NCBI RefSeq assembly: GCF_020510705.1
Contig: NZ_CP075184.1
Span: 744,001 to 808,000, forward strand
DNA: 64,000 nucleotides
Origin: Acidovorax radicis
GTDB taxonomy: Bacteria; Pseudomonadota; Gammaproteobacteria; Burkholderiales; Burkholderiaceae_C
Direction of reading: 5' to 3'
A program made the translations under genes and the position numbers. A model generated the notes under the pieces. It was not told the origin of the DNA. It worked only from the letters and a program-made list of their open reading frames with translations, and did no database searches. Within the stretch, counting starts at the first letter, position 1. Each line of letters starts with the position of its first letter. Below are positions 28,343-53,276 of this stretch, in pieces.

Positions 28343-29542
28343 ATGGCCAAACAAGTCCAGGAAGCCTACATCGTCGCTGCCACGCGCACGCCCATCGGGC
28401 GTTCGCACCGCGGCTTCTTCCGCAACATGCGTCCCGATGACCTGCTGGCGACCACGCTCAAAGCCGCGCTGGCGGCAGTGCCCGGGCTCGACCCAAAGGC
28501 CATCGAGGACATCATCTGCGGCTGCGCCATTCCTGAGGCGCAACAAGGCCTGAACGTGGCGCGCATCGGTGCCGTGCTGGCTGGCCTGCCCCCCAGCGTG
28601 GGCGGCATCACCGTCAACCGCTTTTGCGCATCGGGCCTGTCGGCCGTGCAGATGGCGGCCGACCGCATCCGCGTGGGCGAGGCCGATGTGATGATTGCTG
28701 CTGGTGTGGAAAGCATGAGCATGGTGCCCATGATGGGCAACAGCCCCAGCCTGTCACCCAGCATCTTCGAGCGCGATGGCGACGTAGGCATTGCCTACGG
28801 CATGGGCCTCACGGCCGAGAAGGTGGCCCAGCAGTGGAAGGTGAGCCGCGACGCACAAGACGCGTTTGCGCTGGCCTCGCACCAAAAGGCCTTGGCCGCG
28901 CAACAGGCGGGCTACTTTGCCGACGAGACCACCCCCATCGAAGTGACCGACCGCACGGCCAACCTGGAAACAGGCGAGACCATTGCCACGACGCGCATCG
29001 TCAGCATGGACGAAGGCGCACGCCCCGACACCAGCCTGGAAGGCCTGGCCAAGCTCAAGACGGTGTTTGCTGCGCGCGGCAGCGTGACGGCGGGCAACAG
29101 CTCGCAGACCAGCGACGGCGCCGGTGCGTTGATCCTGGCCAGCGAGTCGGCCGTGAAGCGCTTTGGCCTCACACCGCTGGCGCGTTTCGTGAGCTACGCA
29201 GCCAAGGGCGTGCCGCCGCACATCATGGGCATCGGGCCCATCGAGGCCATCCCTGCCGCGCTGCGCTATGCGGGCCTGACCCTGCAGGACATGGACTGGT
29301 TTGAGCTGAACGAGGCGTTTGCGGCGCAGTCGCTGGCCGTGATGAACACGCTGGGGATGGACCCGAGCAAGGTGAACCCGATGGGTGGGGCCATTGCGCT
29401 GGGGCACCCGCTGGGGGCCACGGGGGCCATTCGCTCGGCGACGGTGGTGCATGCATTGAGGCGCAACAAGCTCAAGTACGGGATGGTGACCATGTGTGTA
29501 GGCATGGGACAAGGCGCCGCCGGCATCTTCGAAGCTGTTTGA
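28343..29542 (+). CDS. fadA: Acetyl-CoA C-acyltransferase (thiolase)
   Basis: Cleaves 3-ketoacyl-CoA with CoA to give acetyl-CoA and a shortened acyl-CoA. The 399-residue protein shows all thiolase motifs: [30 protein letters not shown] (nucleophilic Cys about residue 93), [32 protein letters not shown] and MVTMCVGMGQGAAGIFE (second active-site Cys). RBS AAGGAG precedes the ATG. With the FadN-type gene and the acyl-CoA dehydrogenase upstream it completes a beta-oxidation set. Confidence 0.95.
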   Translation: MAKQVQEAYIVAATRTPIGRSHRGFFRNMRPDDLLATTLKAALAAVPGLDPKAIEDIICGCAIPEAQQGLNVARIGAVLAGLPPSVGGITVNRFCASGLSAVQMAADRIRVGEADVMIAAGVESMSMVPMMGNSPSLSPSIFERDGDVGIAYGMGLTAEKVAQQWKVSRDAQDAFALASHQKALAAQQAGYFADETTPIEVTDRTANLETGETIATTRIVSMDEGARPDTSLEGLAKLKTVFAARGSVTAGNSSQTSDGAGALILASESAVKRFGLTPLARFVSYAAKGVPPHIMGIGPIEAIPAALRYAGLTLQDMDWFELNEAFAAQSLAVMNTLGMDPSKVNPMGGAIALGHPLGATGAIRSATVVHALRRNKLKYGMVTMCVGMGQGAAGIFEAV

Positions 29543-29553
29543 TTGTTGGCTGG

Positions 29554-29663
29554 CTACCGAGCGGGCGATCTGCGTCGTTGGGCGGTGCTCGCCATCCTCA
29601 CGTACCTTGAGTACGTTCCGGTGGCTGTGCTCCGTCCGCCTAGCAGCTCATCCCGCTCGCTAC
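29554..29663. repeat. Long imperfect inverted repeat after the thiolase gene
   Basis: Two arms of about 53 bases, CTACCGAGCGGG...CACGTAC and GTACGTTCCGG...CCCGCTCGCTAC, face each other around CTTGA at about 29606-29610. Identity between arms is roughly two thirds, concentrated at the outer ends (GAGCGGG) and the centre (ACGTAC). It may serve as a transcription terminator or processing hairpin, or be a dispersed element. No gene lies in 29543-29747. Confidence 0.6.
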
Positions 29664-29747
29664 GCCCTTGAGGGTGGGGTGGGAAGACAGGGCCGCATCG
29701 TTTTCTTTTCAAACCGACGCAGATCGGTGTGAACCAAGGAGACAGAT

Positions 29748-30647
29748 ATGAACAAGCAAACCTTGCAGGTCCACGGTGCCGATGGCGCGGTAGCGCTGGC
29801 GCTGCGTGTCTATGAGCCCGATGGCGCTGCGCGCGCCAGCGTCGTGATTGGCGGGGCCATGGGGGTGCGGCAGTCGTTCTATGGGGCCTTTGCGTTGTGG
29901 CTGGCGCAGCAGGGGTTTCGGGTCACCACGTTCGACTACCGGGGCCACGGTGATTCGCTGCAGGGCGCCATGCGCGATGTGAAGGCCGATTTGTTTGACT
30001 GGGCCGACGACTACGAGGCGGTGATCTCTGCCGCCAAGGCCGCGCTACCGGCGCAGCCGCTGTACTTGCTAGGCCACAGCCTGGGCGCGCAGTTGCCCGG
30101 TCTGCTTCAGCGGCCGGAACAGGTGGCTGGCCTGCTCAGCGTGGCGGCGGGCAGCGGCTACTGGCGCGACAACGCGCCGCAGCTCAAGCGCATCGTCCCG
30201 TATTTCTGGTGGGTGCTGGTGCCGCTGGCCACGCGGTTGTGCGGGTATTTTCCGGGTCGCGCGCTCAAGAAGGTGGGTGACTTGCCTGCGGGTGTGATCC
30301 TGCAGTGGCGCCGCTGGTGCCTGGACCCTGCTTACAGCGTGGGCGCCGAGGGGCCAGCGGTGGCGCAGAGTTATGGCGCGGTGCGGTTCCCCGTGCTGGC
30401 GCTGTCGATGGCAGACGACGAGCTGATGACCTTGCGCGGCACGCACAACCTGGTGAACCTGTACGCCAACGCCGCGCGCCGTGTGGAGAGCATTACGCCA
30501 GCTGACGTGCAGGTGCGGCGCATCGGGCACTTTGGTTTCTTTCGCGACCAGTTCCGCCAGAGCCTGTGGCCGCGTGCGGTGGCAGCGCTGGCTGCTCTGG
30601 GCGGCGGTGCCATGCCCCGTCACGAAGTCTCCGGTACGACGGTCTGA
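29748..30647 (+). CDS. Alpha/beta hydrolase
   Basis: A 299-residue alpha/beta-hydrolase-fold protein. Visible are the oxyanion-hole region GGAMGVRQSFYGAFALWLAQ, strand and loop VTTFDYRGHGDSLQGAM, the nucleophile elbow LLGHSLGAQLPGL (Ser about residue 110), an acidic loop (SMADDELMT), and the catalytic His in RRIGHFGFFRDQF. RBS AGGAG precedes the ATG. The substrate is unknown; its position between acyl-CoA genes suggests an ester or thioester. It is separated from the thiolase gene by the inverted repeat. Confidence 0.88.
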   Translation: MNKQTLQVHGADGAVALALRVYEPDGAARASVVIGGAMGVRQSFYGAFALWLAQQGFRVTTFDYRGHGDSLQGAMRDVKADLFDWADDYEAVISAAKAALPAQPLYLLGHSLGAQLPGLLQRPEQVAGLLSVAAGSGYWRDNAPQLKRIVPYFWWVLVPLATRLCGYFPGRALKKVGDLPAGVILQWRRWCLDPAYSVGAEGPAVAQSYGAVRFPVLALSMADDELMTLRGTHNLVNLYANAARRVESITPADVQVRRIGHFGFFRDQFRQSLWPRAVAALAALGGGAMPRHEVSGTTV

Positions 30648-30674
30648 GCGGTCGTTTCGCGGCACACTTGCAAC

Positions 30675-31538
30675 ATGACTTCTTCCTCTTCCCATTCATC
30701 GCCGTCTTCCTCCATCCACCCGTTGGACGAAGCGCTGCAGCTGACGGCCTCGTCCTCTGCGACCGGTCAGTACGAAGGGCAGACCCACCCCGGCTACTGG
30801 AACATGGTGGGCCCGTTTGGCGGCGTCACCGCTGCCACGCTGCTGCAGGCTGTCCTGCAGCACCCTGACCGGCTGGGCGACCCGCTGTCGCTCACCGTCA
30901 ACTACGCGGGCGCCCTGACAGCCGGTGCGTTCACGGTGCAGGCAACGCCCGTGCGCACCAACCGATCGACCCAGCACTGGACGCTGTCGATCCTGCAGGC
31001 CGGTGCCGACGGCGCGCCGGTGGTCACCACCACCGCTACCGCCGTCACGGCGGTGCGCCGCGAGACCTGGAGCGTGGGCGATGTGCCCATGCCCCAGGTG
31101 CCGCCCCCCGCAGAACAAAAGGCCATCGTCGCCCCATTGGGTGCCGTGGAGTGGCTTAACCGTTATGAGATGCGCCCTATCTCCGGCTTCATCCCGCGCA
31201 CCTGGGACGGCAGCGGAGACCACAGCCTGACGCAGCTGTGGATGCGCGACACACCACCCCGGCCGCTCGACTTTGTGGCGCTGTCTGCATTGGCCGATGT
31301 GTTCTTCCCCCGCGTGTGGCTGCGCCGTGCGCGCCAGGTGCCTGCGGGCACGGTGTCCATCACCGTGTACTTCCACGCCACGGCAGAGCAGCTGCAGGCC
31401 ACGGGCACGGGCTTCCTGCTCGGCCAGGCGCGCGGGCAGGAGTTCCGCAACGGTTTCTTCGACCAGACCGTGCAGCTTTGGAACGAGGCGGGCACCATGC
31501 TCGCCACCAGCCACCAGATCGTTTATTACAAGGAATAG
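30675..31538 (+). CDS. Acyl-CoA thioesterase family protein (TesB-like double hotdog)
   Basis: A 287-residue protein with two hotdog-like halves: N-terminal YWNMVGPFGGVTAATLLQAVLQHPDRLGDPLSLTVNYAGAL and a C-terminal half containing TWDGSGDHSLTQLWMRDTPPRPLDFVALSALADVFFPRVWLRRA. This layout matches the TesB/acyl-CoA thioesterase-like family that hydrolyses acyl-CoA to free acid. It lies 27 bases after the hydrolase gene in the same direction and 78 bases before an enoyl-CoA hydratase, probably in one transcript. Confidence 0.82.
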   Translation: MTSSSSHSSPSSSIHPLDEALQLTASSSATGQYEGQTHPGYWNMVGPFGGVTAATLLQAVLQHPDRLGDPLSLTVNYAGALTAGAFTVQATPVRTNRSTQHWTLSILQAGADGAPVVTTTATAVTAVRRETWSVGDVPMPQVPPPAEQKAIVAPLGAVEWLNRYEMRPISGFIPRTWDGSGDHSLTQLWMRDTPPRPLDFVALSALADVFFPRVWLRRARQVPAGTVSITVYFHATAEQLQATGTGFLLGQARGQEFRNGFFDQTVQLWNEAGTMLATSHQIVYYKE

Positions 31539-31616
31539 GAAGTCGGCCTGTTGCTCTGCGCCGTGCATTCCTTTCCCCGTCATCATCATCATCCAGACCC
31601 CGGAACTTTCACCACC

Positions 31617-32396
31617 ATGACCGAAGCCACCACCCAAGACATCCTCGTCCACTCCGAAGCGGGCGTGACCACCGTCACCTTCAACCGCGTGGACAAGAAG
31701 AACTCCATCACGCGCGACATGTATGCTGCCATGGCCGATGCGCTCGACGCCGCCAAGGCCGACGCCAGCGTGCGCGTGGTCGTGTTCCAGGGCGATGTGG
31801 CCATCTTCAGCGCGGGCAACGACATTGGCGACTTTTTGCAGCAGCCGCCTGCCACGCAGGACTCGCCCGTGTTCCGTTTTCTGCGCGGCATCGCCGCCTT
31901 CCCCAAGCCCGTGATCGCCTCGGTCTGCGGCCCGGCCGTGGGCATTGGCACCACCATGCTGTTCCATTGCGATCTGGTCTATGCGGGCGACAACGCGGCG
32001 TTCTCCATGCCGTTCGTCAACCTGGGCCTGTGCCCTGAAGCCGCATCGAGCCTGCTGGTGCCGCAGATGCTGGGTTATCACCGCGCTGCCGAAGCCTTGC
32101 TGTTGGGCGAGCCTTTCATGGCCGAGGCTGCGTTGGAAGTCGGCCTGGTGAACCGTGTGGTGCCGCCGACCGAATGCAATGGCGTCGCGCAGGCGCAGGC
32201 GAAGAAGCTGGCGGCCAAGCCGTTGTCGTCGCTCATCGAAACCAAGCGGTTGATGAAGGGTGGGCAGACGGCGAAGGTGTTGGAAGTGATGGCGGAAGAG
32301 GGCGAGAGCTTTGGTCGCATGTTGCGCGAGCCTGCGGCGCGGGAGGCGTTTTCGGCGTTTATGGAAAAGAGAAAGCCTGATTTCAGCAAGAGCTGA
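31617..32396 (+). CDS. Enoyl-CoA hydratase/isomerase family protein
   Basis: A 259-residue single-domain crotonase. Motifs: VTFNRVDKKNSITRDMYAAMADAL, VVFQGDVAIFSAGNDIGDFL (first oxyanion-hole element, with Asn-Asp), ASVCGPAVGIGTTMLFHCDLVYAGDNAAFSMPFVNLGLCPEAASSLLVP (second element and the position of catalytic acids). The ATG at 31617 is preferred to 31551, which would add a histidine-rich run. It ends the beta-oxidation run before the repeat island at 32.4 kb. Confidence 0.92.
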   Translation: MTEATTQDILVHSEAGVTTVTFNRVDKKNSITRDMYAAMADALDAAKADASVRVVVFQGDVAIFSAGNDIGDFLQQPPATQDSPVFRFLRGIAAFPKPVIASVCGPAVGIGTTMLFHCDLVYAGDNAAFSMPFVNLGLCPEAASSLLVPQMLGYHRAAEALLLGEPFMAEAALEVGLVNRVVPPTECNGVAQAQAKKLAAKPLSSLIETKRLMKGGQTAKVLEVMAEEGESFGRMLREPAAREAFSAFMEKRKPDFSKS

Positions 32397-33520: not shown

Positions 33521-33550
33521 ATTTTTACAAAGCACTTGCTTGCTAAAAAT
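33521..33550. promoter_or_regulatory. 30-bp palindrome, likely operator of the second TetR regulator (site A)
   Basis: ATTTTTA-CA-AAGCA, spacer CT, TGCTT-GC-TAAAAAT: perfect 7-base outer arms and perfect 5-base inner arms, with a two-base mismatch between. It ends 24 bases before the start codon of the TetR gene. Highly similar 30-bp palindromes lie at 53164-53193 and 60174-60203. Confidence 0.75.
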
Positions 33551-33574: not shown

Positions 33575-34312
33575 ATGGATTCACCCGTGCCGCGCACCAG
33601 CGCCATCGCCCCCGCTCCCAAGAAACCGCCGGCCCGCACTGGCAGCAAGGCCGTAGCCTCCTCCGACGCCAACGCAGCCACTGTGGAGGCAACCCCTACC
33701 CGCCGCCCCCGTGGCCGCCCCCGCAAGACCGCCGAGGAACTGGACGACGGCAATCGCCGCCGCAAGCTCATGGACGGCGCGGCCAAGCTCTTCCGCACCC
33801 AGGGCTTTGCCGCCACCAGCACGCGCGACATTGCGGCGGCCGCAGGCATGCACAGCGGCTCGCCCTTCTACCACTTCGAAAGCAAAAGCGCGCTGCTCTA
33901 CGCCGTAATGAGCGAGGGCATGACCATGGCCACGCAAAGCCAGCAGCAGGCACTCGATGCACTGCCCGCCGCGGCCACGCCGCGCGAGCAGTTGCACACG
34001 CTCATTCGCCACCACTTCGAGATCCTGCTCGGGCCGCGCAGTAGCTTCATCCCTGTGATGCTTTACGAGTGGCGTTCGCTCACGCCTGCGCAGCGCAAGG
34101 GCATTGCCCGCATCAAGGACAGCTACGAGGCCACCTGGATGCCCGTGCTGGAAGCGCTGGCAAAGCAGGGTGCGCTGCAGGCCGAGCCCGGCGTGGCGCG
34201 GCTGTTCATCTTTGGGGCGCTCAACTGGGCGGTGCAGTGGTTCTCGCCCAAGAAGGGCAAATCGCTCGACGCGCTCACCGACGAGGCGCTGGCCTTGTTC
34301 ATCCGTTCATAA
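33575..34312 (+). CDS. TetR family transcriptional regulator
   Basis: A 245-residue regulator with a disordered, Ala/Pro/Arg-rich N-terminus of about 50 residues ending in an AT-hook-like RRPRGRPRK (about 46-54), then the TetR HTH: RRRKLMDGAAKLFRTQGFAATSTRDIAAAAGMHSGSPFYHFESKSALLYAVM. The C-terminal ligand domain is TetR_C-like. The 30-bp palindrome just upstream implies autoregulation, and the first structural gene follows after 28 bases. By position and neighbours it resembles AtuR or other acyl-CoA-responsive repressors. Start at 33575 is preferred to an AT-rich upstream in-frame start that would lie in the operator. Confidence 0.92.
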   Translation: MDSPVPRTSAIAPAPKKPPARTGSKAVASSDANAATVEATPTRRPRGRPRKTAEELDDGNRRRKLMDGAAKLFRTQGFAATSTRDIAAAAGMHSGSPFYHFESKSALLYAVMSEGMTMATQSQQQALDALPAAATPREQLHTLIRHHFEILLGPRSSFIPVMLYEWRSLTPAQRKGIARIKDSYEATWMPVLEALAKQGALQAEPGVARLFIFGALNWAVQWFSPKKGKSLDALTDEALALFIRS

Positions 34313-34340: not shown

Positions 34341-35270
34341 ATGGCCCCCACCGCGCGCAACGCCTACCAGTCAGTGTTTGCTCCGGGCCTGTTTCAGGGC
34401 CAGGTGGTGGTCGTCACCGGCGGCGGCTCGGGCATTGGCCGGTGCACGGCACATGAGCTGGCGCACCTGGGCGCGCATGTGGTGTTGGTGGGGCGCAAGC
34501 CAGAAAAGTTGCTGGCCGTGGCCGAAGAGATCACTGCCGATGGCGGCCGTGTGTCCTGCGAGGTGTGCGACATCCGATCCGAAGGAGGCGTGGTGGCGCT
34601 GGTGCAGCAGATCATCGCTGCGCAGGGTCGCATCGATGCGCTGGTCAACAACGCAGGCGGGCAGTTCATGTCGCCGCTCGAATCCATCAGCGCCAAGGGC
34701 TGGGAGGCCGTGCTGCACACCAACCTCACCGGCGGCTTTTTGATGGCGCGTGAGTGTTATCGGCAGTGGATGGCGCAGCACGGTGGCTCCATCGTCAACA
34801 TCGTGGCCGACATGTGGGGCTCCATGCCGGGCATGGGGCACAGCGGGGCTGCGCGCGCGGGCATGGTCAGCTTCACCGAAACCGCCGCGTTGGAATGGGC
34901 GCACAGCGGTGTGCGCGTGAACGCTGTGGCGCCGGGCTACATCGCCTCCAGCGGCATGGACAACTACCCGCCCGAGGCGGCCGACATGCTGCGCGCCATG
35001 CCGCGCACGGTGCCGCTGGGCCGCTTTGGCAACGAGGCCGAGGTGTCGGCGGCCATCACCTTTTTGCTCAGCCCGGCAGCCAGCTTCATCAGCGGCACCA
35101 CGCTGCGGGTGGACGGCGCACGGCCCCAGGTGCGCATGGGCTGGCCGCAGCGCCCGCCCGGTGCCACCGCTGCAGCACACCCGGCCGTGCAGCCGTTTGA
35201 CGGCTTTCACCGCGCACAGGTGCCGCAGGTGTTTGCACCTTCCCATACCCCCAAGACCGAGGCCGCATGA
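34341..35270 (+). CDS. SDR-family protein, PECR/AtuB-like, lacking the YxxxK catalytic pair
   Basis: A 309-residue short-chain dehydrogenase/reductase-fold protein. The NAD(P)-binding motif VTGGGSGIG (residues 25-33) and VNNAGG (102-107) are intact. The region HSGAARAGMVSFTETAALEW aligns by eye with the peroxisomal trans-2-enoyl-CoA reductase pattern SGAARAGVYNLTKSLALEW, but residue 176 is Val where Tyr is expected and residue 180 is Glu where Lys is expected. The usual SDR catalytic Tyr and Lys are therefore both missing, so activity may be altered or lost. An unusual C-terminal tail of about 50 residues (Pro/Gln-rich) follows. Its stop overlaps the next start (ATGA at 35267). Confidence 0.88.
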   Translation: MAPTARNAYQSVFAPGLFQGQVVVVTGGGSGIGRCTAHELAHLGAHVVLVGRKPEKLLAVAEEITADGGRVSCEVCDIRSEGGVVALVQQIIAAQGRIDALVNNAGGQFMSPLESISAKGWEAVLHTNLTGGFLMARECYRQWMAQHGGSIVNIVADMWGSMPGMGHSGAARAGMVSFTETAALEWAHSGVRVNAVAPGYIASSGMDNYPPEAADMLRAMPRTVPLGRFGNEAEVSAAITFLLSPAASFISGTTLRVDGARPQVRMGWPQRPPGATAAAHPAVQPFDGFHRAQVPQVFAPSHTPKTEAA

Positions 35271-36880
35271 CTGCCGTCTTCACCTCCCGCTTCAACCCAG
35301 GCAGCGCCGAGGCCACCCAGCGCCGCGCAGCGCTGCAGGCCCGCCTTCATGCTCTGCGCGCGCTGGAAGAGCGTGCCGCCGCCGCCTCGGCCCGGTCGCT
35401 GCCCCAGTTTGAAAAACGCGGCCAGCTGCTGCCGCGCCAGCGGGTGGCACTGCTGCTGGATGCGGGTGCGCCCTGGCTGCCGCTGTGCACGCTGGCGGGC
35501 TACCTGCAGGACGTGAAAGACCCCGAGAAGTCCGTGCCCGGTGGCGGCATGGTCGCGGGCATCGGCTTTGTGAGTGGCGTGCGCTGCATGGTGGTGGCCA
35601 GCGACTCGGGCATCGAGGCCGGAGCCATCCAGCCCATGGGCCTGGAAAAGATTTTGCGCGTGCAGGAGATCGCGCTGCAAAACCGCTTGCCGTTCATCCA
35701 CTTGGTCGAGAGCGCGGGCGCCAACCTCATGCGCTATCGCGTGGAGGGCTTTGTGCACGGCGGCACGCTGTTCCGCAACCTCGCGCGGTTGTCGGCAGCG
35801 GGCATTCCGGTCATCACCGTGCAGCACGGCTCGGGCACTGCAGGCGGCGCTTACATGCCCGGCTTGTCGGACGTGGTCATCATGGTGCAGGGCCGCTCGC
35901 GCGCCTTTCTGGCCGGGCCGCCGTTGCTCAAGGCCGCTACTGGCGAGATCGCTACCGAGGAGGAGCTGGGCGGCGCCGAGATGCATACGGCGGTCTCTGG
36001 CCTGGGCGAATACCTGGCCCAGGACGACCGCGAGGCCATTGGCCTGGCACGCGATGTGGTGGCGCAGCTGGGGTGGAGTACGCACCGGCGAACCAGCGCA
36101 CCCGGGCCCACCTTGCCCGCCGACGACCTGCTGGCCCTGATGTCTGCCGACCTGCGCCAACCCGTGGACATGCGCGAGGTGATGGCGCGGCTGGTGGACG
36201 GCTCCGAGCTGCTCGAATTCAAGGCCCGCTACGGCATGGCCACCGTGTGCGCGCAGGGCCACATCCAGGGCCATGCGGTGGGCTTCATCAGCAACAACGG
36301 CCCCATCGACGTGGCGGGCGCCAACAAGGCCACGCACTTCATCCAGTGGATGTGCCAGCTGGGCCACCCCATCATCTACCTGCAGAACACCACGGGCTAC
36401 ATGGTGGGCAAGGACAGCGAGCAGGGCGGCATGATCAAGCACGGCAGCAAGATGATCCAGGCCGTGACCAACGCCACCGTGCCGCAGATCACCATCCAGT
36501 GCGGCGCCAGCTTTGGTGCGGGCAACTACGGCATGTGCGGGCGCGGCTATGCGCCGCGCTTCCTGTTCAGCTGGCCCGGTGCCAAGACGGCGGTGATGGG
36601 CGGCGAGCAGGCTGCGCGCACCATGCAGATCGTGACCGAGGCGGCGCTGGCGCGCAAAGGCATCACGCCCGACCCGGCCGAATCGCAGGCACAGTTCGAC
36701 AAGATCGTCGCCATGTTCGAGGCCCAGGCCGATGCGCTCTACACCAGCGGTCTGCTGCTGGACGACGGCGTGATCGACCCGCGCGACACGCGGGCCGTGC
36801 TGGCGTTTTGCCTGGACACCTGTGCCGAGGCGCAGGCCCGCACGCTGCGGCCCCTGAGCTTTGGCGTGGCGCGGATGTAA
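35267..36880 (+). CDS. Acyl-CoA carboxylase beta (carboxyltransferase) subunit
   Basis: Transfers carboxyl from biotin to an acyl-CoA. The 537 residues carry both carboxyltransferase halves: GGGMVAGIGFVSGVRCMVVASDSGIEAG, LPFIHLVESAGANLM, VQHGSGTAGGAYMPGLSDVVIMV, FISNNGPIDVAGANKATHFIQWMCQ, YLQNTTGYMVGKDSEQGGMIKHGSKMIQAV and CGASFGAGNYGMCGRGYAPRFLFSWP. These closely follow the methylcrotonyl-/geranyl-CoA carboxylase type rather than propionyl-CoA carboxylase. Its biotin-bearing partner is encoded 3.2 kb downstream (40073). Together with the SDR, dehydrogenase and hydratase genes this suggests an atuC-like role, but methylcrotonyl-CoA or another branched enoyl-CoA cannot be excluded. Confidence 0.92.
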   Translation: MTAVFTSRFNPGSAEATQRRAALQARLHALRALEERAAAASARSLPQFEKRGQLLPRQRVALLLDAGAPWLPLCTLAGYLQDVKDPEKSVPGGGMVAGIGFVSGVRCMVVASDSGIEAGAIQPMGLEKILRVQEIALQNRLPFIHLVESAGANLMRYRVEGFVHGGTLFRNLARLSAAGIPVITVQHGSGTAGGAYMPGLSDVVIMVQGRSRAFLAGPPLLKAATGEIATEEELGGAEMHTAVSGLGEYLAQDDREAIGLARDVVAQLGWSTHRRTSAPGPTLPADDLLALMSADLRQPVDMREVMARLVDGSELLEFKARYGMATVCAQGHIQGHAVGFISNNGPIDVAGANKATHFIQWMCQLGHPIIYLQNTTGYMVGKDSEQGGMIKHGSKMIQAVTNATVPQITIQCGASFGAGNYGMCGRGYAPRFLFSWPGAKTAVMGGEQAARTMQIVTEAALARKGITPDPAESQAQFDKIVAMFEAQADALYTSGLLLDDGVIDPRDTRAVLAFCLDTCAEAQARTLRPLSFGVARM

Positions 36881-36902: not shown

Positions 36903-38033
36903 ATGGCCGAGCCTCTCAAATACCTGCTGAACGACACCGTGCCCCCGCGCATCGCGGCCATGGTGCGGCGCGCGTGGCGGTCTTTCGACACCAAGGCGTT
37001 CTTGCGCCAGATCGAGCCCGGCTACGAATCGCTGGAGCTGATGGCGCGCGGCCAGCGCATTGCGCAGGCCCTGCAGATACACCTGCCGCAAGACGTGCCG
37101 CGTGCGCTGGGTGTGCTGGTCGATTCGATGGACCCGCCGATGGGTATCGATGCGGCGGGTGAGCCCGATGCGGCTGACCGCCCTTACAGCGCATTTCTGT
37201 ACCTGCCATACAGCATGTACATCGGCGTACAGGGGCTCGCGCACTTTGAGGCGGCCATGGTCGCGCAGCACGCGCTCACTCAGCGCTTTACGGCGGAGTT
37301 CTGCATTCGCCCCTACCTGCTGCACCACCAGGGCGCCACGCTCGCGCGGCTGCACGACTGGGCGCAGGACGACAACGCCCATGTGCGCCGTCTGGTGAGC
37401 GAAGGCACGCGGCCCCGCCTGCCCTGGGCGCCGCGTTTGCCTGCATTCCAGAACAACCCGCAACTGGCCCTGCCGTTGCTCGATGCGCTCAAGGACGACC
37501 CATCGTCCTACGTGCGTCGCTCCGTGGCCAACCACCTGGGCGACATCGCCAAGGACCACCCCGACCTGGCCGTGGGCACCGCGCGCACCTGGCTGCAGGG
37601 CGCGCCCGCACCGCGCGAGGCCCTGGTGCGCCACGGCCTGCGTTTTCTCATCAAACGCGGCGACGCCGCTGCGCTCGATGCCCTGGGCGTGGGCCATGCC
37701 GTGGCGCTGGATGTGCGGGCCGCGCGCGTGCTGCCCGCCCGCGCACGCATCGGCGACAAGGTGCGCATCGAGGTCGAACTGCACAACCCCACACCCCAGC
37801 CCCAGCGCGTGCTGGCGGACCTGAAGGTGCACTACGTCAAGGCCCACGGCGGTGCGGCGCCCAAGGTGTTCAAGCTGCAGACGCTGGACATCGCCCCCGG
37901 CGCCACCGTGGCGGTGGGCAAGACGCTGTCACTGCAGCAGATGACCACACGCACCCACTACCCCGGCGCGCACCAGGTGGAGCTGGTGCTCAACGGGCGG
38001 CCCCAGCCGCTGGGGCAGTTTCAGCTTTCGTGA
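36903..38033 (+). CDS. AlkC/AlkD-like HEAT-repeat DNA alkylation repair protein
   Basis: A 376-residue helical-repeat protein. Family marks are DWAQDDNAHVRRLVSEGTRPRLPWAPRLPAF and ALPLLDALKDDPSSYVRRSVANHLGDIAKDHPDLAV, characteristic of the AlkC branch of alkylpurine glycosylases, which remove alkylated bases without base flipping. The C-terminal part (about 270-376) is a beta-rich tail ending in RTHYPGAHQVELVLNGR. It lies 22 bases after the carboxylase beta gene and 53 bases before an acyl-CoA dehydrogenase, in the middle of a catabolic operon where a DNA repair enzyme is unexpected. Start at 36903. Confidence 0.85.
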   Translation: MAEPLKYLLNDTVPPRIAAMVRRAWRSFDTKAFLRQIEPGYESLELMARGQRIAQALQIHLPQDVPRALGVLVDSMDPPMGIDAAGEPDAADRPYSAFLYLPYSMYIGVQGLAHFEAAMVAQHALTQRFTAEFCIRPYLLHHQGATLARLHDWAQDDNAHVRRLVSEGTRPRLPWAPRLPAFQNNPQLALPLLDALKDDPSSYVRRSVANHLGDIAKDHPDLAVGTARTWLQGAPAPREALVRHGLRFLIKRGDAAALDALGVGHAVALDVRAARVLPARARIGDKVRIEVELHNPTPQPQRVLADLKVHYVKAHGGAAPKVFKLQTLDIAPGATVAVGKTLSLQQMTTRTHYPGAHQVELVLNGRPQPLGQFQLS

Positions 38034-38086
38034 TCGAGGTTTGCAGGCACACCAACACACAGACGCAACAGCAGGAGACAAGCACC

Positions 38087-39265
38087 ATGCAGTTCACACA
38101 CGAGCACCGCGAGATCCAGAAGACCCTCAAGCGTTTCATCGACGAAGAGATCAACCCCCATGTGGACGAATGGGAAGCGGCCGAGATCTTCCCCGCACAC
38201 GAGGTCTTCAAGAAGATGGGCAACCTGGGCCTGCTGGGCCTGTGCAAGCCCGAGGAATATGGCGGCGCAGGGCTGGACTACTCCTACAGCCTGGCCATGG
38301 CCGAGGCGCTGGGCCACATCCACTGCGGCGGCGTGCCCATGGCCATCGGCGTGCAGACCGACATGTGCACCCCGGCGCTGGCGCGCTACGGCAGCGAAGA
38401 ACTCAAGCGGAACTTTCTGGCCCCTGCGATTGCGGGCGACATGGTGGGCTGCATTGGCGTGAGCGAGCCTGCGGCGGGCAGCGATGTGTCGGGCATCAAA
38501 AGCGTGGCGCGCAAGGATGGTGACGACTACGTGATCACCGGCCAGAAGATGTGGATCACCAACAGCCTGCAGGCCGACTGGATGTGCATGCTGGTCAACA
38601 CGGGCGAAGGCCCCGTGCACAAGAACAAGAGCCTGGTGATGGTGCCCATGCGCGATGGCCCGGGTGGCAAGCTCACCAAGGGCATCGAGGTGGCGCAAAA
38701 GATCCGCAAGATCGGCATGCACAGCAGCGACACCGGCCTGATCTACTTTGACGAGGTGCGCGTTCCGCAGCGTTACCGCATCGGTGCCGAAGGGCAGGGC
38801 TTCATCTACCAGATGCAGCAATTCCAGGAAGAGCGCCTGTGGTGCGCCGCCAGCACGCTTGAATCGCTGAACCACTGCATCCAGTGGACCATCGACTACG
38901 CGCAGGAGCGCAAGCTGTTTGGCGCCACGCTGGCCGACCAGCAGTGGGTGCAGTTCAAGCTGGCCGAGCTCAAGACCGAGGTCGAGGCCCTGCGCGCGCT
39001 CACCTACCGCGCCTGCGATCTGTACGTGAACGGGCAGGACGTGCTGGAGCTCGCCAGCATGGCCAAGCTCAAGGCCGGCCGCCTGAACCGCGAGGTGCCC
39101 GACACCTGCCTGCAGTTCTGGGGCGGCATGGGCTTCACGCTGGAGAACAAGGTCTCGCGCATGTACCGCGACGGGCGGCTGGCGTCCATCGGCGGGGGCG
39201 CGGATGAAGTGATGCTGGGCATTCTCGCCAAGCTCATGGGCATCGCCAAGCGGCCCGTGCACTGA
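38087..39265 (+). CDS. Acyl-CoA dehydrogenase (AtuD-like)
   Basis: A 392-residue FAD-dependent acyl-CoA dehydrogenase: GCIGVSEPAAGSDVSGIKSVARKDGDDYVITGQKMWITNSLQADWM, KIGMHSSDTGLIYFDEVRVPQRYRIG, FQEERLWCAASTLESL, and C-terminal FWGGMGFTLENKVSRMYRDGRLASIGGGADEVML. The last segment holds the position of the catalytic base. The N-terminal INPHVDEWEAAEIFPAHEVFKKMG and CGGVPMAIGVQTDM are like citronellyl-CoA dehydrogenases of atu clusters, by memory. The RBS GGAG (38073) and ATG at 38087 define the start. It follows the AlkC-like gene. Confidence 0.93.
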   Translation: MQFTHEHREIQKTLKRFIDEEINPHVDEWEAAEIFPAHEVFKKMGNLGLLGLCKPEEYGGAGLDYSYSLAMAEALGHIHCGGVPMAIGVQTDMCTPALARYGSEELKRNFLAPAIAGDMVGCIGVSEPAAGSDVSGIKSVARKDGDDYVITGQKMWITNSLQADWMCMLVNTGEGPVHKNKSLVMVPMRDGPGGKLTKGIEVAQKIRKIGMHSSDTGLIYFDEVRVPQRYRIGAEGQGFIYQMQQFQEERLWCAASTLESLNHCIQWTIDYAQERKLFGATLADQQWVQFKLAELKTEVEALRALTYRACDLYVNGQDVLELASMAKLKAGRLNREVPDTCLQFWGGMGFTLENKVSRMYRDGRLASIGGGADEVMLGILAKLMGIAKRPVH

Positions 39266-39266
39266 C

Positions 39267-40076
39267 ATGGCTGATTCGCTGGTGATCGACCGCGCGCCGC
39301 TTGCCAGCGGCAGCGTGGAAACCTGGACGCTCAACGACCCGGCCAGCCGCAATGCGCTGTCAGAAGCCATGGTGGACGGTTTGATAGCCGCGTGTGAGCA
39401 GGCTGCGGCCGATGCCGACCTGCGCGGCGTGGTGTTGCGCGGTGCCGGTGGGCACTTCTGCGCGGGGGGCAGCCTGGGCGGCTTTGCCAAGACCATTGGC
39501 CAGCCCCTGGCTGCCGGCACAGCCGACCCGCTGGTGCCACTGAACCGCCGCTTTGGCGCGTTGCTGCAGGCCCTGTGCGCACTTCCGCAGTGGCTCATCG
39601 TGGCGGTGGAGGGCGCGGCCCTGGGTGGCGGCTTTGGGATCGTGTGCTGCGCCGACCATGTGCTGGCCCATACCAGCGCGCAGTTCGCCACGCCCGAGGT
39701 CACGCTGGGCATCGTGCCTGCGCAGATTGCGCCCTTTGTGGTACGGCGCCTTGGCTCAGTGGCGGCGCGGCGGTGTTTGCTTACTGGGGAGCGCTGGGAT
39801 GCTGCGAAAGCTCAACGCGCAGGGCTGGTGGATGAGGTGGTCGCTGGCGACATGGAGACTGCTGTGCAAGCCGTCATCGCGCGCCACGTCGCCGCAGCGC
39901 CGCAGGCCGTGGCCGCCACCAAACGCTTATTGCTGGCCCAGTCCGAGACGCCGTTGCCTGCGCTGCTGGATGAAGCGGCGATTGCTTTTGCGCAAGCGCT
40001 GCGTGGGTCCGAGGCGCCGCAAGGGCTGGTGGCGTTTGCTGCGCGCAAGGCACCACCCTGGAGTGCGAAACCATGA
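39267..40076 (+). CDS. Enoyl-CoA hydratase (glutaconyl-type, LiuC/AtuE-like)
   Basis: A 269-residue crotonase family enzyme. Motifs: GGHFCAGGSLGGFAK (first oxyanion-hole element), VAVEGAALGGGFGIVCCADHVLAHTSAQFATPEVTLGIVPAQIAPFVVRRLG. The PAQIAPFVVRRLG stretch is characteristic of methylglutaconyl- and isohexenylglutaconyl-CoA hydratases, the step right after a carboxylase of the LiuBD or AtuCF type. That fits its position between the dehydrogenase and the biotin carboxylase genes. It begins one base after the previous stop, and its own stop overlaps the next start by four bases. Confidence 0.9.
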   Translation: MADSLVIDRAPLASGSVETWTLNDPASRNALSEAMVDGLIAACEQAAADADLRGVVLRGAGGHFCAGGSLGGFAKTIGQPLAAGTADPLVPLNRRFGALLQALCALPQWLIVAVEGAALGGGFGIVCCADHVLAHTSAQFATPEVTLGIVPAQIAPFVVRRLGSVAARRCLLTGERWDAAKAQRAGLVDEVVAGDMETAVQAVIARHVAAAPQAVAATKRLLLAQSETPLPALLDEAAIAFAQALRGSEAPQGLVAFAARKAPPWSAKP

Positions 40077-42097
40077 AAAAGATACTTGTAGCGAACCGAT
40101 CCGAGATCGCCCGCCGCATCATCCACACCGCTCACCGCATGGGCATCGAAACGGTCGCCGTCTACTCCGACCCCGATGCCAACGCCCAACATGTGCGCGA
40201 AGCCACCCAGGCCGTCGCGCTAGGCGGCGCAGCCAGCGCCGACACCTACCTGCGTACCGACAAGCTGCTGGCCGCAGCCCGAGCTACAGGTGCCGATGCT
40301 GTACATCCCGGATATGGCTTCCTCAGCGAGAACGCCGACTTTGCCCAAGCGGTGGTCGATGCGGGCCTGACCTGGATCGGCCCCGCGCCCGCCGCCATAC
40401 GTGCGCTGGGCAGCAAGTCCGGTGCGAAGGCTTTGGCGGCCACGCATGGGGTGCCCTGTCTGCCGGGTTATGCGGGGGACGACCAGAGTGATGAACGTTT
40501 TGCGCAAGAGGCCGCGCGCATCGGCTACCCCGCCATGGTCAAGGCCGTGGCGGGTGGGGGAGGGCGCGGCATGCGGCTAGTCACCGATGCGGCGCAACTG
40601 CCCGCCGCACTGGCCAGCGCGCGGTCCGAAGCGCTGGTGGGCTTTGGCTGTGGTGACTTGCTCATCGAACGCGCACTGCTGCAGCCCCGCCATGTGGAGG
40701 TGCAAATCTTTGCCGACGCCCACGGCGCGTGCATCCACCTGGGCGAGCGCGATTGCTCGGTGCAACGCCGCCACCAGAAGGTCATTGAGGAGTCCCCCAG
40801 CCCCGCCGTGGACGCAGCGCTGCGCGAGCGCATGGGCGCCTGCGCTGTGGCGCTGGCGCAGGCCGCTGGCTATGTGGGTGCGGGCACGGTGGAATTCCTT
40901 CTGGATGGGGCTGAATTCTTCTTAATGGAGATGAACACCCGCCTGCAAGTGGAGCACCCGGTGACCGAAGCGCTCACGGGGCTGGACCTGGTGGAATGGC
41001 AAATCCGCGTGGCACGTGGCGAGCCGCTGCCGCTCACGCAAGACCAGGTGCATCTGCAAGGCCACGCCATCGAAGTGCGCCTGTGCGCCGAAGACGCGCA
41101 CTTTCGCCCGCACACCGGCCGCGTGCTGCACTTCAGCGCGCCGCCTGCCGCAGCCTTCGAGCGCACTGCCATGGGCGCCTTGCGCTTCGATCACGCGCTA
41201 GAAGAGGGCGCCGAGGTATCGCCCCACTACGACGCCATGCTGGGCAAGCTCATCGTGCACGCCGCCACGCGGGCCGATGCCATTGACGCGCTGGTCCGCG
41301 CGCTGCAGGGCACCAGCGTGCTGGGCCTGCTCACCAACCGCGCGTTTTTGGCAGCGTGCCTTGGCCACCCAGTGTTTCGCGACGGCAAAGCGCTGGTGCC
41401 GTTTCTGGCCGAGCATGCCAAAGAGCTGCAAGCGTCGCTATTGAAAGAGGAGCTATCAGCGCTTATCCCATCAGCGCTATCGGCCATTTTTACTTCAAAT
41501 TGTTCTGCGCCAGCCTCCGCAAGCCTGCCTTGCACCCTGGCCCGCCCGCTGCGCCTGCGCCACCAGGGCGAAGTGCACGCGCTTGCCGTGCGCGAGCTGG
41601 GCGCGGGCCGGCTGCACGTGGAGCACACAGACGCGACCACGGGCCAGCTGAATACCACCACCGTGCAACTCACCCCGCACCCCGGCGGCGCCATACGCAC
41701 CACCACGCGCAGCGGGGCAGAGGGCGGCGTGCAGGCTGACCACACCGTCCGCACCTTGCGCGTGGCCCCCTTGCGATGGCACTGGCAAGCGGGCGGCGTG
41801 GACGGCTGGATGGAAGACGCATCGTGGGAGCCCGCCGCGCGCGCAGGTGCCGCCGGTGGCGCCACCGAGCTGCGCGCGCCCTTCAACGGCAAGGTGGTCG
41901 CGCTGCCTGTGGCTGCAGGGCAGGCGCTGGCGGCAGGCGACACCGTGTTGGTCATCGAATCCATGAAGCTCGAACACAGCCTGGCATGCCCCGTGGCCGC
42001 CACAGTGGCCGAGCTGCTGGTCGCGCCCGGCCAGCAGGTGTCGCCCGGCCAGGTGCTGGCCCGCTTTGCGCCCGCCACGCCAGGAGCCACCGCATGA
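40073..42097 (+). CDS. Biotin carboxylase/biotin carrier (acyl-CoA carboxylase alpha subunit)
   Basis: Carboxylates biotin with bicarbonate and ATP, then delivers it to the beta subunit. The 674 residues contain the biotin carboxylase N-domain (KKILVANRSEIARRIIHTA), the ATP-grasp domain (MVKAVAGGGGRGMRLV; RHVEVQIFADAHGACIHLGERDCSVQRRHQKVIEESPSP; FFLMEMNTRLQVEHPVTE), the C-domain (EVRLCAEDAHFRPHTGR) and a C-terminal biotinyl domain with VIESMKLEHS, where Lys632 is the biotin site. Residues about 455-476, in the linker before the BT-like domain, are encoded by a reverse copy of the dispersed repeat (41436-41500). Partner of the beta subunit at 35267. Confidence 0.94.
   Translation: MKKILVANRSEIARRIIHTAHRMGIETVAVYSDPDANAQHVREATQAVALGGAASADTYLRTDKLLAAARATGADAVHPGYGFLSENADFAQAVVDAGLTWIGPAPAAIRALGSKSGAKALAATHGVPCLPGYAGDDQSDERFAQEAARIGYPAMVKAVAGGGGRGMRLVTDAAQLPAALASARSEALVGFGCGDLLIERALLQPRHVEVQIFADAHGACIHLGERDCSVQRRHQKVIEESPSPAVDAALRERMGACAVALAQAAGYVGAGTVEFLLDGAEFFLMEMNTRLQVEHPVTEALTGLDLVEWQIRVARGEPLPLTQDQVHLQGHAIEVRLCAEDAHFRPHTGRVLHFSAPPAAAFERTAMGALRFDHALEEGAEVSPHYDAMLGKLIVHAATRADAIDALVRALQGTSVLGLLTNRAFLAACLGHPVFRDGKALVPFLAEHAKELQASLLKEELSALIPSALSAIFTSNCSAPASASLPCTLARPLRLRHQGEVHALAVRELGAGRLHVEHTDATTGQLNTTTVQLTPHPGGAIRTTTRSGAEGGVQADHTVRTLRVAPLRWHWQAGGVDGWMEDASWEPAARAGAAGGATELRAPFNGKVVALPVAAGQALAAGDTVLVIESMKLEHSLACPVAATVAELLVAPGQQVSPGQVLARFAPATPGATA
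41436..41500 (-). repeat. Dispersed repeat, in-frame copy in the carboxylase alpha gene
   Basis: Read on the minus strand this is TTTGAAGTAAAAATGG, CCGATAGCGCTGATGGG, ATAAGCGCTGATAGCT, CCTCTTTCAATAGC: the same AT ends and AGCGC core pair as the other copies, in the opposite orientation. It translates in frame as an AT-rich stretch (SLLKEELSALIPSALSAIFTSN) within an otherwise GC-rich gene. Confidence 0.7.
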
Positions 42098-43278
42098 CGG
42101 CCACGACCGGCACGGGTGTAACGACGGCGGTGGCCAGCGATGAAGACCGCACCGCCCTCACCGACACCGTCACCCGATTCGCCCGCACCGAGATCGCGCC
42201 GCATGTGGACGCGTGGGATGCCGCCGGTGAATTCCCTCGCAGCCTGTACCGCCGCGCGGCCGACCTGGGCCTGCTGGGGCTGGGCTACCCCGAACAGTAC
42301 GGCGGCACGCCCGCCAGCTACCTGCTTCGCCTGCCACTGTGGCGCGCGCTCAGCCGCCATGGCGCCAGCGGCGGTGTGCTGGCCAGCCTGCTGTCGCACA
42401 ACATCGGCCTTCCGCCCGTGCTGGCGCATGGCAGCGACGCGGTGCGCGCCGAGGTCATTCCACCGGTGCTGGCGGGCGAACAGATTGCCGCGCTGGCGAT
42501 CACCGAGCCCGGTGGCGGGTCGGACGTGGCGCAGCTCAAGACCACCGCGCGGCGTGAGGGCGATGAGTACATCGTCAACGGTGAAAAGGTGTTCATCACC
42601 TCCGGCATGCGCGCGGACTGGATCACGGTGGCTGTGAGGACCGGGGAGGTCGGATGCAAGGGCAGCGCAGGCATCTCCATGCTGCTCATCCCGGGCCACA
42701 GCGCAGGCCTGTCGCGCAGCAAGCTCGACAAGATGGGCTGGCTCTGCTCCGACACCGCCCACCTGCGCTTTGACAGCGTGCGTGTGCCCGCCCGCTACCT
42801 GCTGGGCGAAGAGGGCGCGGGCTTTCGCATCATCATGGCCAACTTCAACGGCGAGCGCTTTGGCCTCGCCGCGTCGGCCCTGGGCTTTGCCGAGGCCTGC
42901 TACGACGAGGCCCTGGCCTGGGCTCGCCAGCGCAAGACCTTTGGCGCCGCGCTGGTCGAGCACCAGGTCATCCGCCACAAGCTGGTGGACATGCAGATGC
43001 GCATCCAGTCCACCGCCGCGTGGTGCGAATCCGTGGCCGCGCAGGCCGACGCGGGGCGCACCGGCCCCGAGTTGGTTGCCAACGTCTGCCTGCTGAAAAA
43101 CCACGCCACCCAAACCATGCAGTTCTGCGCCGACCAGGCCGTGCAGATCCTGGGCGGCATGGGCTTCATGCGCGGCACCGTCAGCGAGCGCATTTACCGC
43201 GAGGTCAAGGTCATGATGATCGGCGGCGGTGCGGAAGAGATCATGAAGGACCTGGCTGCAAAACAGCTCGGCATTTGA
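42094..43278 (+). CDS. Acyl-CoA dehydrogenase
   Basis: Second acyl-CoA dehydrogenase of the operon, 394 residues. Motifs: LAITEPGGGSDVAQLKTTARREGDEYIVNGEKVFITSGMRADWI, KMGWLCSDTAHLRFDSVRVPARYLLGEEGAGF, NFNGERFGLAASALGFAEACYDEAL, and FCADQAVQILGGMGFMRGTVSERIYREVKVMMIGGGAEEIMKDL. It is distinct from the dehydrogenase at 38.1 kb. The ATG overlaps the carboxylase stop by four bases. With two dehydrogenases on either side of a carboxylase, one probably makes the carboxylase substrate and the other acts on a later or alternative acyl-CoA. Confidence 0.93.
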   Translation: MTATTGTGVTTAVASDEDRTALTDTVTRFARTEIAPHVDAWDAAGEFPRSLYRRAADLGLLGLGYPEQYGGTPASYLLRLPLWRALSRHGASGGVLASLLSHNIGLPPVLAHGSDAVRAEVIPPVLAGEQIAALAITEPGGGSDVAQLKTTARREGDEYIVNGEKVFITSGMRADWITVAVRTGEVGCKGSAGISMLLIPGHSAGLSRSKLDKMGWLCSDTAHLRFDSVRVPARYLLGEEGAGFRIIMANFNGERFGLAASALGFAEACYDEALAWARQRKTFGAALVEHQVIRHKLVDMQMRIQSTAAWCESVAAQADAGRTGPELVANVCLLKNHATQTMQFCADQAVQILGGMGFMRGTVSERIYREVKVMMIGGGAEEIMKDLAAKQLGI

Positions 43279-43296
43279 ATGAAGGAGACAGCCACC

Positions 43297-44193
43297 ATGC
43301 ACAGCACCGACCACGGCAACAAAGCCATCATCACCTGCGCCATCACCGGCGTGCTGACGGACCCCGGCCAGCACCACGTGCCCGTCACGCCCGAGCAACT
43401 GGCAAAAGAGGCCCGCCGTGCGTACGACGCTGGCGCCGCCGTGGTGCACGTGCACTTTCGCAACCAGGAGCCCGGCAAGGGCCACCTGCCCAGCTGGGAC
43501 CCGCAGGTGGCGCGCAACTGCGTGCAAGCCATGCGCGAGGCCTGCCCGGGTTTGATCATCAACCAGACCACCGGCGTGGTCGGCCCCAATTACCAAGGCC
43601 CGCTCGACTGCCTGCGCGCCACCCGCCCCGAGATGGCGGCCTGCAACGCCGGCTCGCTCAACTACCTGAAGGTGCGCAGCAACGGCACCTGGGCCTGGCC
43701 GCCCATGCTGTTCGACAACCAGCCCGCCAAGGTCAAGGACTTCATCGACGTGATGCTGGAGACCGGCACGCTGCCCGAGTTTGAATGCTTTGACGTGGGC
43801 ATCGTGCGCTGCGTGGAGATGTATGTGCAGACCGGCATGTACACCCAAGGCCTGCCCGAATACAACTTTGTGATGGGCGTCGAATCCGGCATGCCTGCGG
43901 ACCCGGACCTGCTGCCCATTTTGCTCAAGCTCAAGATCAAGGACGCCCCCTGGCAAGCCACCGTCATCGGCCGCAGCGAGATCTGGCCCGTGCACCAGCG
44001 CGTGGCAGAGCTGGGCGGGCATCTGCGCACGGGGCTGGAGGACACGTTCTATCTGCCGGACGGGACCAAGGCGGATTCGAACGGACCGTTGATTGAACAG
44101 CTGGCGCAGTACGCGCGCAACGCGGGGCGGGAGGTGGCGTCGCCGCAGGAGGCGCGGGGGATGTTGGGGTTGAAGACTGCGGTCATGCCATAA
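43297..44193 (+). CDS. BKACE-family (3-keto-5-aminohexanoate cleavage-type) enzyme
   Basis: Zinc-dependent TIM-barrel enzyme that splits a beta-keto acid with acetyl-CoA to give a CoA ester and acetoacetate. The 298-residue protein carries the family marks KAIITCAITGVLTD, AGAAVVHVHFRNQEPGKGHLPSWD with the metal-binding HxH (about residues 47-49), LIINQTTGVVG and FECFDVGIVRCVEMYVQTGMY. The RBS AAGGAG (43282-43287) precedes the ATG at 43297; an in-frame ATG at 43279 lies at the RBS and is disfavoured. Last gene of the carboxylase operon, it could supply the cleavage step that HMG-CoA-type lyases provide in liu and atu pathways, which is inference. Confidence 0.9.
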   Translation: MHSTDHGNKAIITCAITGVLTDPGQHHVPVTPEQLAKEARRAYDAGAAVVHVHFRNQEPGKGHLPSWDPQVARNCVQAMREACPGLIINQTTGVVGPNYQGPLDCLRATRPEMAACNAGSLNYLKVRSNGTWAWPPMLFDNQPAKVKDFIDVMLETGTLPEFECFDVGIVRCVEMYVQTGMYTQGLPEYNFVMGVESGMPADPDLLPILLKLKIKDAPWQATVIGRSEIWPVHQRVAELGGHLRTGLEDTFYLPDGTKADSNGPLIEQLAQYARNAGREVASPQEARGMLGLKTAVMP

Positions 44194-46610: not shown

Positions 46611-46700
46611 ATGGGTATCCGCATTTGAGCGTCACAAATCCAGGTGAGCGGAATACTTTATCTACACTTTCAGGTCCAGCATATTTGTAGAGACTTCTAG

Positions 46701-50218: not shown

Positions 50219-50240
50219 GATGTTCTTGTCTCCTGCCCGT

Positions 50241-51446
<1,206 letters not shown>

Positions 51447-51592
51447 GAATGGTCTCCGGTGGTTTCTCTAAACTTCAAGCAGATGGGGCGGTGAAGCCGC
51501 TGGGCTGGCTCACGCCACTACAAGGTGCTTTCTGACGCGGGTGCAGTGGTTTTTGCACTATCGTTCGGCGGTTGCTATCTACATTTCTGGCC

Positions 51593-51895
51593 ATGGAACG
51601 AAATACATCTTCTGCATTGCAGCGCATGGCGCGCAGCGCTATCGAATACGACGACACGCGCGAAGGGTTTGCGCTGGAGCACCATGTCGTGCTGGCAGCA
51701 TCCAGTGCGCTGGCGGTGGCGGCCTTCATGGCGCCCAGCCGCAGCGCGGCGGCCATCCGCGGCATTGGCGCAGGCTTGCTGCTGATGCGCGCGCTGAGCG
51801 GCAGCCAGGGTGTGCGCTCCTGGCTGAATGTCACCGACCGCCGCCCCGGTGCACCGCTGAGCCCCGAGGAAGCCCGCGCCGCCTGGTATCTGTGA
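51593..51895 (+). CDS. Small hypothetical protein with hydrophobic segment
   Basis: A 100-residue open frame: MERNTSSALQRMARSAIEYDDTREGFALEHH, then hydrophobic VVLAASSALAVAAFMAPS, GIGAGLLLMRALSGSQG and a polar tail rich in Arg and Glu. I do not recognise it. Two short hydrophobic stretches could be membrane helices. It is the only plus-strand gene between minus-strand catabolic genes, and the frame has a codon composition like coding DNA, but no ribosome-binding site is obvious. Confidence 0.5.
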   Translation: MERNTSSALQRMARSAIEYDDTREGFALEHHVVLAASSALAVAAFMAPSRSAAAIRGIGAGLLLMRALSGSQGVRSWLNVTDRRPGAPLSPEEARAAWYL

Positions 51896-51991
51896 CGGCG
51901 TTTGGCGTCCATCGCGGCGCTAGCCGTGGCGCTGTTCATGGCACCATCCATCGCGTGGGGCATGGCACTGTGCATGGCACCTTTCATGGCG

Positions 51992-53163: not shown

Positions 53164-53193
53164 ATTTATAAAAAGCAGATGCTTTGTTAAATT
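53164..53193. promoter_or_regulatory. 30-bp palindrome upstream of an acyl-CoA dehydrogenase (site B)
   Basis: ATTTATAAA-AAGCA, spacer GA, TGCTT-TGTTAAATT: inner arms are perfect and AT-rich flanks are conserved relative to sites A (33521) and C (60174). It lies just before the start codon of the minus-strand dehydrogenase at 53155. Confidence 0.7.
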
Positions 53194-53276
53194 CTGCCAT
53201 GCAAGTGGGTGTTGTGCATCTCCTCGCAAACGAGAAGGCCGCCCGGGGGCGGCCTGTTGCGAGCGCCAGGACTTAT

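Follow-up and report, generated by a model that had tools for sequence, protein, structure and literature searches.

Three palindromes define a candidate AtuR-type TetR regulon of carboxylation, beta-oxidation and Liv-type import genes in Acidovorax radicis

In a 64-kb stretch of the Acidovorax radicis genome (positions 744001-808000, referred to here as the window), the genes for a TetR-family regulator, an acyl-CoA dehydrogenase and a livH-like permease each start beside a similar palindrome, and the question raised by this locus is whether one repressor could govern all three. An earlier sequence-only reading had noted three near-identical 30-bp palindromes just before these genes and proposed that they define a candidate regulon joining an atu-like carboxylase operon, a dehydrogenase and a Liv/CoA-ligase importer. 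We examined the palindromes, the genes behind them and their counterparts in related genomes by computational analysis.

The three palindromes are found at 33521-33550 (site 1, ATTTTTACAAAGCACTTGCTTGCTAAAAAT), 53164-53193 (site 2, ATTTATAAAAAGCAGATGCTTTGTTAAATT) and 60174-60203 (site 3, ATTTTTACAAAGCGATTGCTTTGCATAAAT), with 12, 10 and 12 symmetric pairs out of 15, respectively. Each of these putative operators lies 8-24 bp upstream of a start codon: site 1 is 24 bp before the ATG of tetR, site 2 is 8 bp before the ATG of acyl-CoA dehydrogenase 3 and site 3 is 17 bp before the GTG start of livH. A search of the window for the core pattern ACAAAGCANNTGCTTTGT, with up to three mismatches allowed, returned three matches, a number reached by none of 100 dinucleotide shuffles. 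Across the genome, scanned as one contig of 4,995,154 bases, the same search found 12 places and its reversed control one, and at two mismatches or fewer exactly three places remained, namely sites 1-3. The nine weaker matches were set aside, having 3-10 A/T among the 16 flank bases as against 13-15 for sites 1-3. A longer 30-bp pattern, ATTTWYRSMAAGCRNNYGCTTKSYRWAAAT, was drawn from sites 1-3 together with the tetR sites of relatives; at up to three mismatches it matches three times in the window (shuffle mean 0.00) and nowhere else in the 5.0-Mb genome (reversed control 0), site 3 fitting it with 0 mismatches and site 2 standing exactly at the 3-mismatch limit. The palindromes are thus as described in the sequence-only reading and far above chance, and the genome-wide scan for random motif matches that it had proposed shows no random scatter with either pattern. 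When the three sites were scanned with the sigma-70 consensus, none had a promoter-like match oriented towards its gene.

Site 1 heads a series of genes on the + strand that opens with tetR (33575-34312), encoding a TetR-family protein of 245 amino acids, and continues with a short-chain dehydrogenase (SDR; 34395-35270, start estimated), an AtuC-like carboxylase beta subunit (35267-36880), a HEAT-repeat/DNA-alkylation-repair-like protein (36903-38033, start estimated, matches below curated cut-offs), acyl-CoA dehydrogenase 1 (38030-39265), an enoyl-CoA hydratase (39267-40076) and a biotin carboxylase alpha subunit (40073-42097), these last three being AtuD-, AtuE- and AtuF-like by position, followed by acyl-CoA dehydrogenase 2 (42121-43278, start estimated) and a BKACE-family beta-keto acid cleavage enzyme (43279-44193). 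The HEAT-repeat gene is found within the catabolic operon mainly in Acidovorax-type loci. Upstream of tetR, at 28343-32396 on the + strand, there is a further acyl-CoA gene set (thiolase, hydrolase, thioesterase, enoyl-CoA hydratase) without a site.

The other two sites face genes on the - strand. Site 2 precedes acyl-CoA dehydrogenase 3 (51992-53155), for which 53155 is the conserved start although a longer frame from 53200 exists. The sequence-only reading had named the dehydrogenase as the target; the site does lie before it, but it is not a lone gene, as an acetyl-CoA C-acyltransferase (thiolase; 50241-51446, model NF006090, 697.5 bits, over the cut-off) and a FadB-like enoyl-CoA hydratase/3-hydroxyacyl-CoA dehydrogenase (48371-50200, with the start near 50200 estimated within an ORF of 48371-50335) follow on the same strand. 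Within the 545-base gap between dehydrogenase 3 and thiolase (51447-51991) lie two degenerate tandem repeats, both short (18 and 12 bases). Site 3 precedes livH (59281-60156), followed by a livM-like permease (58200-59276), a livG-like ATPase (57346-58404, a long ORF that matches from residue 78), a livF-like ATPase (56528-57349), an AMP-binding acyl-CoA ligase (54665-56521, whose nearest model is FadD11, below that model's cut-off) and a Liv-type periplasmic binding protein (53277-54632), and a terminator-like hairpin (53236-53255, - strand) separates this liv operon from site 2. Two transposase genes, of the Mutator type and the IS5 family, occupy 45419-47814 between the BKACE and FadB-like genes, where they separate the tetR operon from the other two gene sets.

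The site recurs before tetR in relatives. From at least 492 confirmed relatives the best 80 loci were taken, 79 of them with sequence upstream of tetR, and a site precedes tetR in 74 of the 79 when five mismatches and overlap with the matched start are permitted. If only the 350 bases ahead of the matched start are counted, with no overlap, 65/79 loci have a site with three mismatches or fewer and 72/79 with four or fewer, and shuffled upstream regions never fell below nine mismatches. Named TetR homologues at 97-98% identity come from Acidovorax, among them that of the sequenced strain GW101-3H11 at 97%. A symmetric matrix was built from the 50 distinct tetR sites of relatives minus the one identical to the window's own tetR site. 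Sites 2 and 3, which lie outside its training set, score 40.9 and 49.1 bits, and site 1 scores 54.2 bits, a value that is partly dependent since sites of close relatives are within a base or two of it; no other place in the 64 kb exceeds -1.1, and 20 Markov sequences reached 4.8 at most.

The distribution of the site follows that of the regulator. In a sample of 150 genomes of the family, that of A. radicis included, a TetR match (E ≤ 1e-20) is found in 50 and the 30-bp pattern in 35, all of them among those 50, with 0 of the 100 genomes lacking a TetR match carrying the site; the reversed pattern is found in 3/150. A close TetR, with at least 55% identity and split frames counted, is present in 37 genomes, 35 of which have the site and two of which do not. 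The genomes are kin to each other, so a Fisher test on this co-occurrence overstates their independence, and the counts of tetR sites are not independent of the pattern, which was partly drawn from them, while the sites elsewhere and the empty genomes are. Outside the family, the homologues listed from 200 genomes of the order are 31-48% identical and have no 30-bp site, their best places showing 7-13 mismatches, though a related core is present at one of these loci (L221). A TetR of about 46% identity from another Burkholderiales family faces an AtuA gene (L202:2-2112), with a different palindrome, TAAATCAATCGATTGATTTA, in the gap.

The regulator and its sites could alternatively belong to FadP or LiuQ, predicted regulators of acyl-CoA degradation in betaproteobacteria. 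FadP has been reported for Comamonadaceae and is tied to beta-oxidation operons (PMC5343134, PMC12543098), and site 2 does head a beta-oxidation set. Against this stand the size of those regulons, which by our calculation from Table 1 of PMC5343134 amount to about 7.8 sites and 17.9 genes per genome (FadP) or 3.9 sites and 5.2 genes (LiuQ), as compared with three sites here, as well as the 31-48% identity and missing 30-bp site of the homologues listed outside the family, and we regard the assignment to FadP or LiuQ as unlikely.

The preferred reading, in which the three sites are operators of the window's own TetR, can be examined at the sites away from tetR. The 35 genomes hold 68 sites, 34 before tetR and 34 not at tetR; by classes assigned by hand, the latter comprise 23 (in 22 genomes) at acyl-CoA dehydrogenase 3 and/or thiolase-fadB, six at livH and five elsewhere, near an SDR gene, a fatty-acid hydroxylase/YhhN gene, a sensor kinase, priA and the prfA region. 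The thiolase was placed by protein match in 21 relatives of the dehydrogenase/thiolase class. In 17 of these the site (two sites in one genome) separates divergently oriented dehydrogenase and thiolase genes, two (G072 and G095) have the dehydrogenase followed by the thiolase in tandem, the same layout as in the window, and in the remaining two dehydrogenase 3 was not found in the stretch examined. Some relatives have an extra gene between site and dehydrogenase, and in G085 the dehydrogenase site is present at four mismatches only. The site and the start codon of the dehydrogenase align across 10 selected sequences, that of A. radicis and those of nine chosen relatives. In three lineages tetR itself has one of these gene sets, dehydrogenase or thiolase-fadB, as its neighbour, with a single site; in several relatives the neighbours of the tetR operon include liv or ligase genes. 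That the sites occur together merely through gene neighbourhood was considered and rejected, as the dehydrogenase site of many relatives is on a different contig from tetR or far from it. Conservation upstream of orthologues, the comparison suggested by the sequence-only reading, is therefore seen at both tetR and the dehydrogenase/thiolase genes.

The livH branch is more restricted. We searched for livH in 12 chosen relatives, each of which gave one match at 79-98% identity, and a site with up to three mismatches lies within 400 bases upstream in five of the 12, four of them with 0 mismatches; the other seven have an orthologous livH and no site in that interval, their best places showing at least 11 mismatches. 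Among the 35 genomes with sites, a site before livH is found in six, those of A. radicis, G085, G072, G095, G002 and G146. In G085, G072, G095 and G002 the 0-mismatch site starts 45-52 bp before the matched livH start, and the distance between the livH and dehydrogenase sites is 7.0 kb in G072, 6.8 kb in G095 and 7.0 kb in A. radicis. All seven relatives without a livH site have a liv gene on the same contig within about 25 kb of tetR, which makes a functional link between liv and tetR plausible. The putative direct control of livH by TetR is thus lineage-specific, and the inclusion of livH in the regulon, as first proposed, is supported by a site in A. radicis and in five of the 12 relatives but not in the other seven. 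It could be argued from the same counts that the live operators are those of tetR and the dehydrogenase alone, and that livH carries a relic, or a site lately gained in its lineage and of little effect. Decay would be expected without selection, and the livH site shows 0 mismatches in A. radicis, G085, G072, G095 and G002, so that we consider this explanation rather improbable. The high AT content and symmetry of the palindromes might also suggest a repeat element or a family of hairpins that regulates nothing, an idea strongly disfavoured by the finding that the genome contains only three of them, each standing 8-24 bp ahead of a start codon, and by the confinement of the sites, among 150 genomes, to those with this TetR.

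Two further lines of evidence, the type of carboxylase and the kinship of the regulator, bear on the atu-like character of the operon. The carboxylase beta subunit matches the geranyl-CoA carboxylase (GCC) of Pseudomonas aeruginosa (5ikl_B) with 589 bits, as against 469 bits for the methylcrotonyl-CoA carboxylase (MCC) beta subunit. Gly162 of GCC has been set against Phe191 of MCC (Nat Commun 2015), and the window's subunit has Gly at this place, as read off the printed alignment. For the alpha subunit the best solved match is MCC alpha, and no chain named GCC alpha was among the matches listed. On the score and the residue of its beta subunit, the carboxylase is of the geranyl-CoA type. A class-level search for such carboxylases scored three candidates per genome and is not exhaustive, one gene-bearing genome being missed. 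AtuA is absent from the operon, and a search of the genome for the AtuA family found a single gene, 1.4 Mb away near 2206600 (L231:8532-9938), adjoining the gene of a TctC binding protein. In five relatives (L139, L152, L192 (Comamonas), L133 and L148) an AtuA homologue of 38-44% identity lies behind the tetR operon in the same orientation.

The regulator has the domains TetR_N and TetR_C_24, the same pair as the AtuR-like proteins listed. A TetR that faces atuA in another genome (G352) finds the window TetR as its best match in A. radicis with 119 bits, the next having 33, and in the reverse search the atuA-facing protein is the best match with 116 bits, the next having 34; this two-way match comes from the one genome searched in both directions. 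In two other genomes with an AtuA-carboxylase cluster (G456 and G572) the AtuR-like TetR is on a different contig from the cluster, and a third (G370) has no matching TetR above 31 bits. The window TetR shares 36-38% identity with the G352 protein, with a Halopseudomonas protein called 'Atu genes repressor' in one source and with a Pseudomonas protein; its identity to four further AtuR-like proteins is 30-37%. In a tree, the Comamonadaceae proteins and the AtuR proteins each form a single group, and TetRs of other Burkholderiales branch between the two in no resolved order, for which reason we speak of an AtuR-type regulator rather than AtuR; with identities of 30-38% and this tree, strict orthology is no more than possible.

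The putative operators can also be compared with those of AtuR in their core. The repeats reported for AtuR read AGCAAGCGCTTGG in one orientation and its reverse complement in the other (PMC9973270), and this 13-mer is found exactly in the gap between atuA and tetR of G352. Placed in register on sites 1, 2 and 3 it matches at 11/13, 9/13 and 11/13 positions; five unrelated 13-mers of the window also reach 11/13, so the 13-mer alone proves little. The same core is found at two further loci, L249 and L255, 6 and 5 mismatches from the 30-bp pattern, respectively, and starting 69 bp before the matched atuA start. Together, the carboxylase type, the AtuR-like regulator and the operator core bear out the description of the operon as atu-like.

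Taken together, these data make it probable that an AtuR-type repressor encoded at 33575-34312 controls all three gene sets through the three palindromes and is released by a CoA ester. The sites, their uniqueness, their co-occurrence with TetR, their recurrence in relatives and the AtuR-like core are seen in the sequences, and binding, repression, ligand and substrate are inferred. The TetR, as a dimer or a pair of dimers, would bind AAGC-N4-GCTT with its AT-rich arms near the gene starts, sitting at each promoter, and the 8-24 bp between the sites and the start codons would suit steric repression. It would repress tetR itself (autoregulation) together with the geranyl-CoA-type carboxylase operon behind it, the acyl-CoA dehydrogenase/thiolase/FadB-like beta-oxidation set, and the Liv-type importer with its acyl-CoA ligase. 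The substrate would probably be an acid of the methyl-branched or terpenoid kind, and a CoA ester derived from it would release the TetR, so that import, activation, carboxylation at the branch and beta-oxidation would come on together; the substrate class is suggested by the carboxylase type and by Atu biochemistry. That one repressor jointly turns on the tetR operon, the beta-oxidation set and the import operon is strongly suggested by the comparisons made here, and the candidate regulon put forward in the sequence-only reading gains support from the uniqueness of the sites and their recurrence at orthologues.

Three anonymous acyl-CoA gene sets, present in many Comamonadaceae, could in this way be treated as a single regulon that has a defined operator and is open to testing. 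A likely substrate class would be gained for the Liv-type importer and its acyl-CoA ligase, and a laboratory strain of Acidovorax would allow the inducer to be tested directly. The operator logic of AtuR would also reach past the divergent clusters of the Pseudomonas type. Acids resembling the diffusible signal DSF are a further option for the substrate, since RdmA, a regulator 86% similar to AtuR, responds to DSF (PMC9973270). A bolder reading, which we hold to be improbable, is that an AtuR-type repressor has been rewired in Comamonadaceae so that its regulon runs from transport to oxidation, with an importer of the Liv type and an acyl-CoA ligase dedicated to the task. The substrate would then be a so far unrecognised acid, either branched or cis-2-unsaturated, and DSF-type signals might be among such compounds. 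If true, this reading would represent a family-wide route for scavenging or quenching such acids.

A thin literature search returned no account of an AtuR-type regulon in Comamonadaceae or Burkholderiales, and a prediction under another name may exist. The predicted betaproteobacterial regulons of FadP, reported in Comamonadaceae among others, and LiuQ share with this locus the control of acyl-CoA degradation by a TetR-family protein, and their reported numbers of sites and genes are unlike the three sites found here. The nearest known system is AtuR with the atuRABCDEFGH cluster of P. aeruginosa and P. citronellolis, where a TetR-family repressor is likewise accompanied by an SDR, geranyl-CoA-type carboxylase subunits, an acyl-CoA dehydrogenase and an enoyl-CoA hydratase, and where the 13-bp repeat fits the middle of the palindromes described here at 9-11 of 13 positions. 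As far as the sources consulted describe that cluster, atuR faces atuA and is served by two 13-bp repeats 40 bp apart, whereas in A. radicis tetR heads the operon, the operon lacks AtuA, a single 30-bp palindrome with AT-rich arms takes the place of the repeats, and the candidate regulon adds beta-oxidation and Liv importer genes. RdmA of Pseudomonas nitroreducens, the AtuR-like TetR of the dmg cluster for DSF degradation, has the same 13-bp repeats as AtuR and is relieved of repression by a fatty-acid-like compound; it differs from the present regulator in serving a divergent dmgA-H cluster, and the part of that report consulted mentions no Liv importer (PMC9973270). The control of a geranyl-CoA carboxylase cluster by AtuR is thus already known, and what differs here is the tandem layout, the single extended 30-bp palindrome, the beta-oxidation set and, in some lineages, the Liv-type importer.
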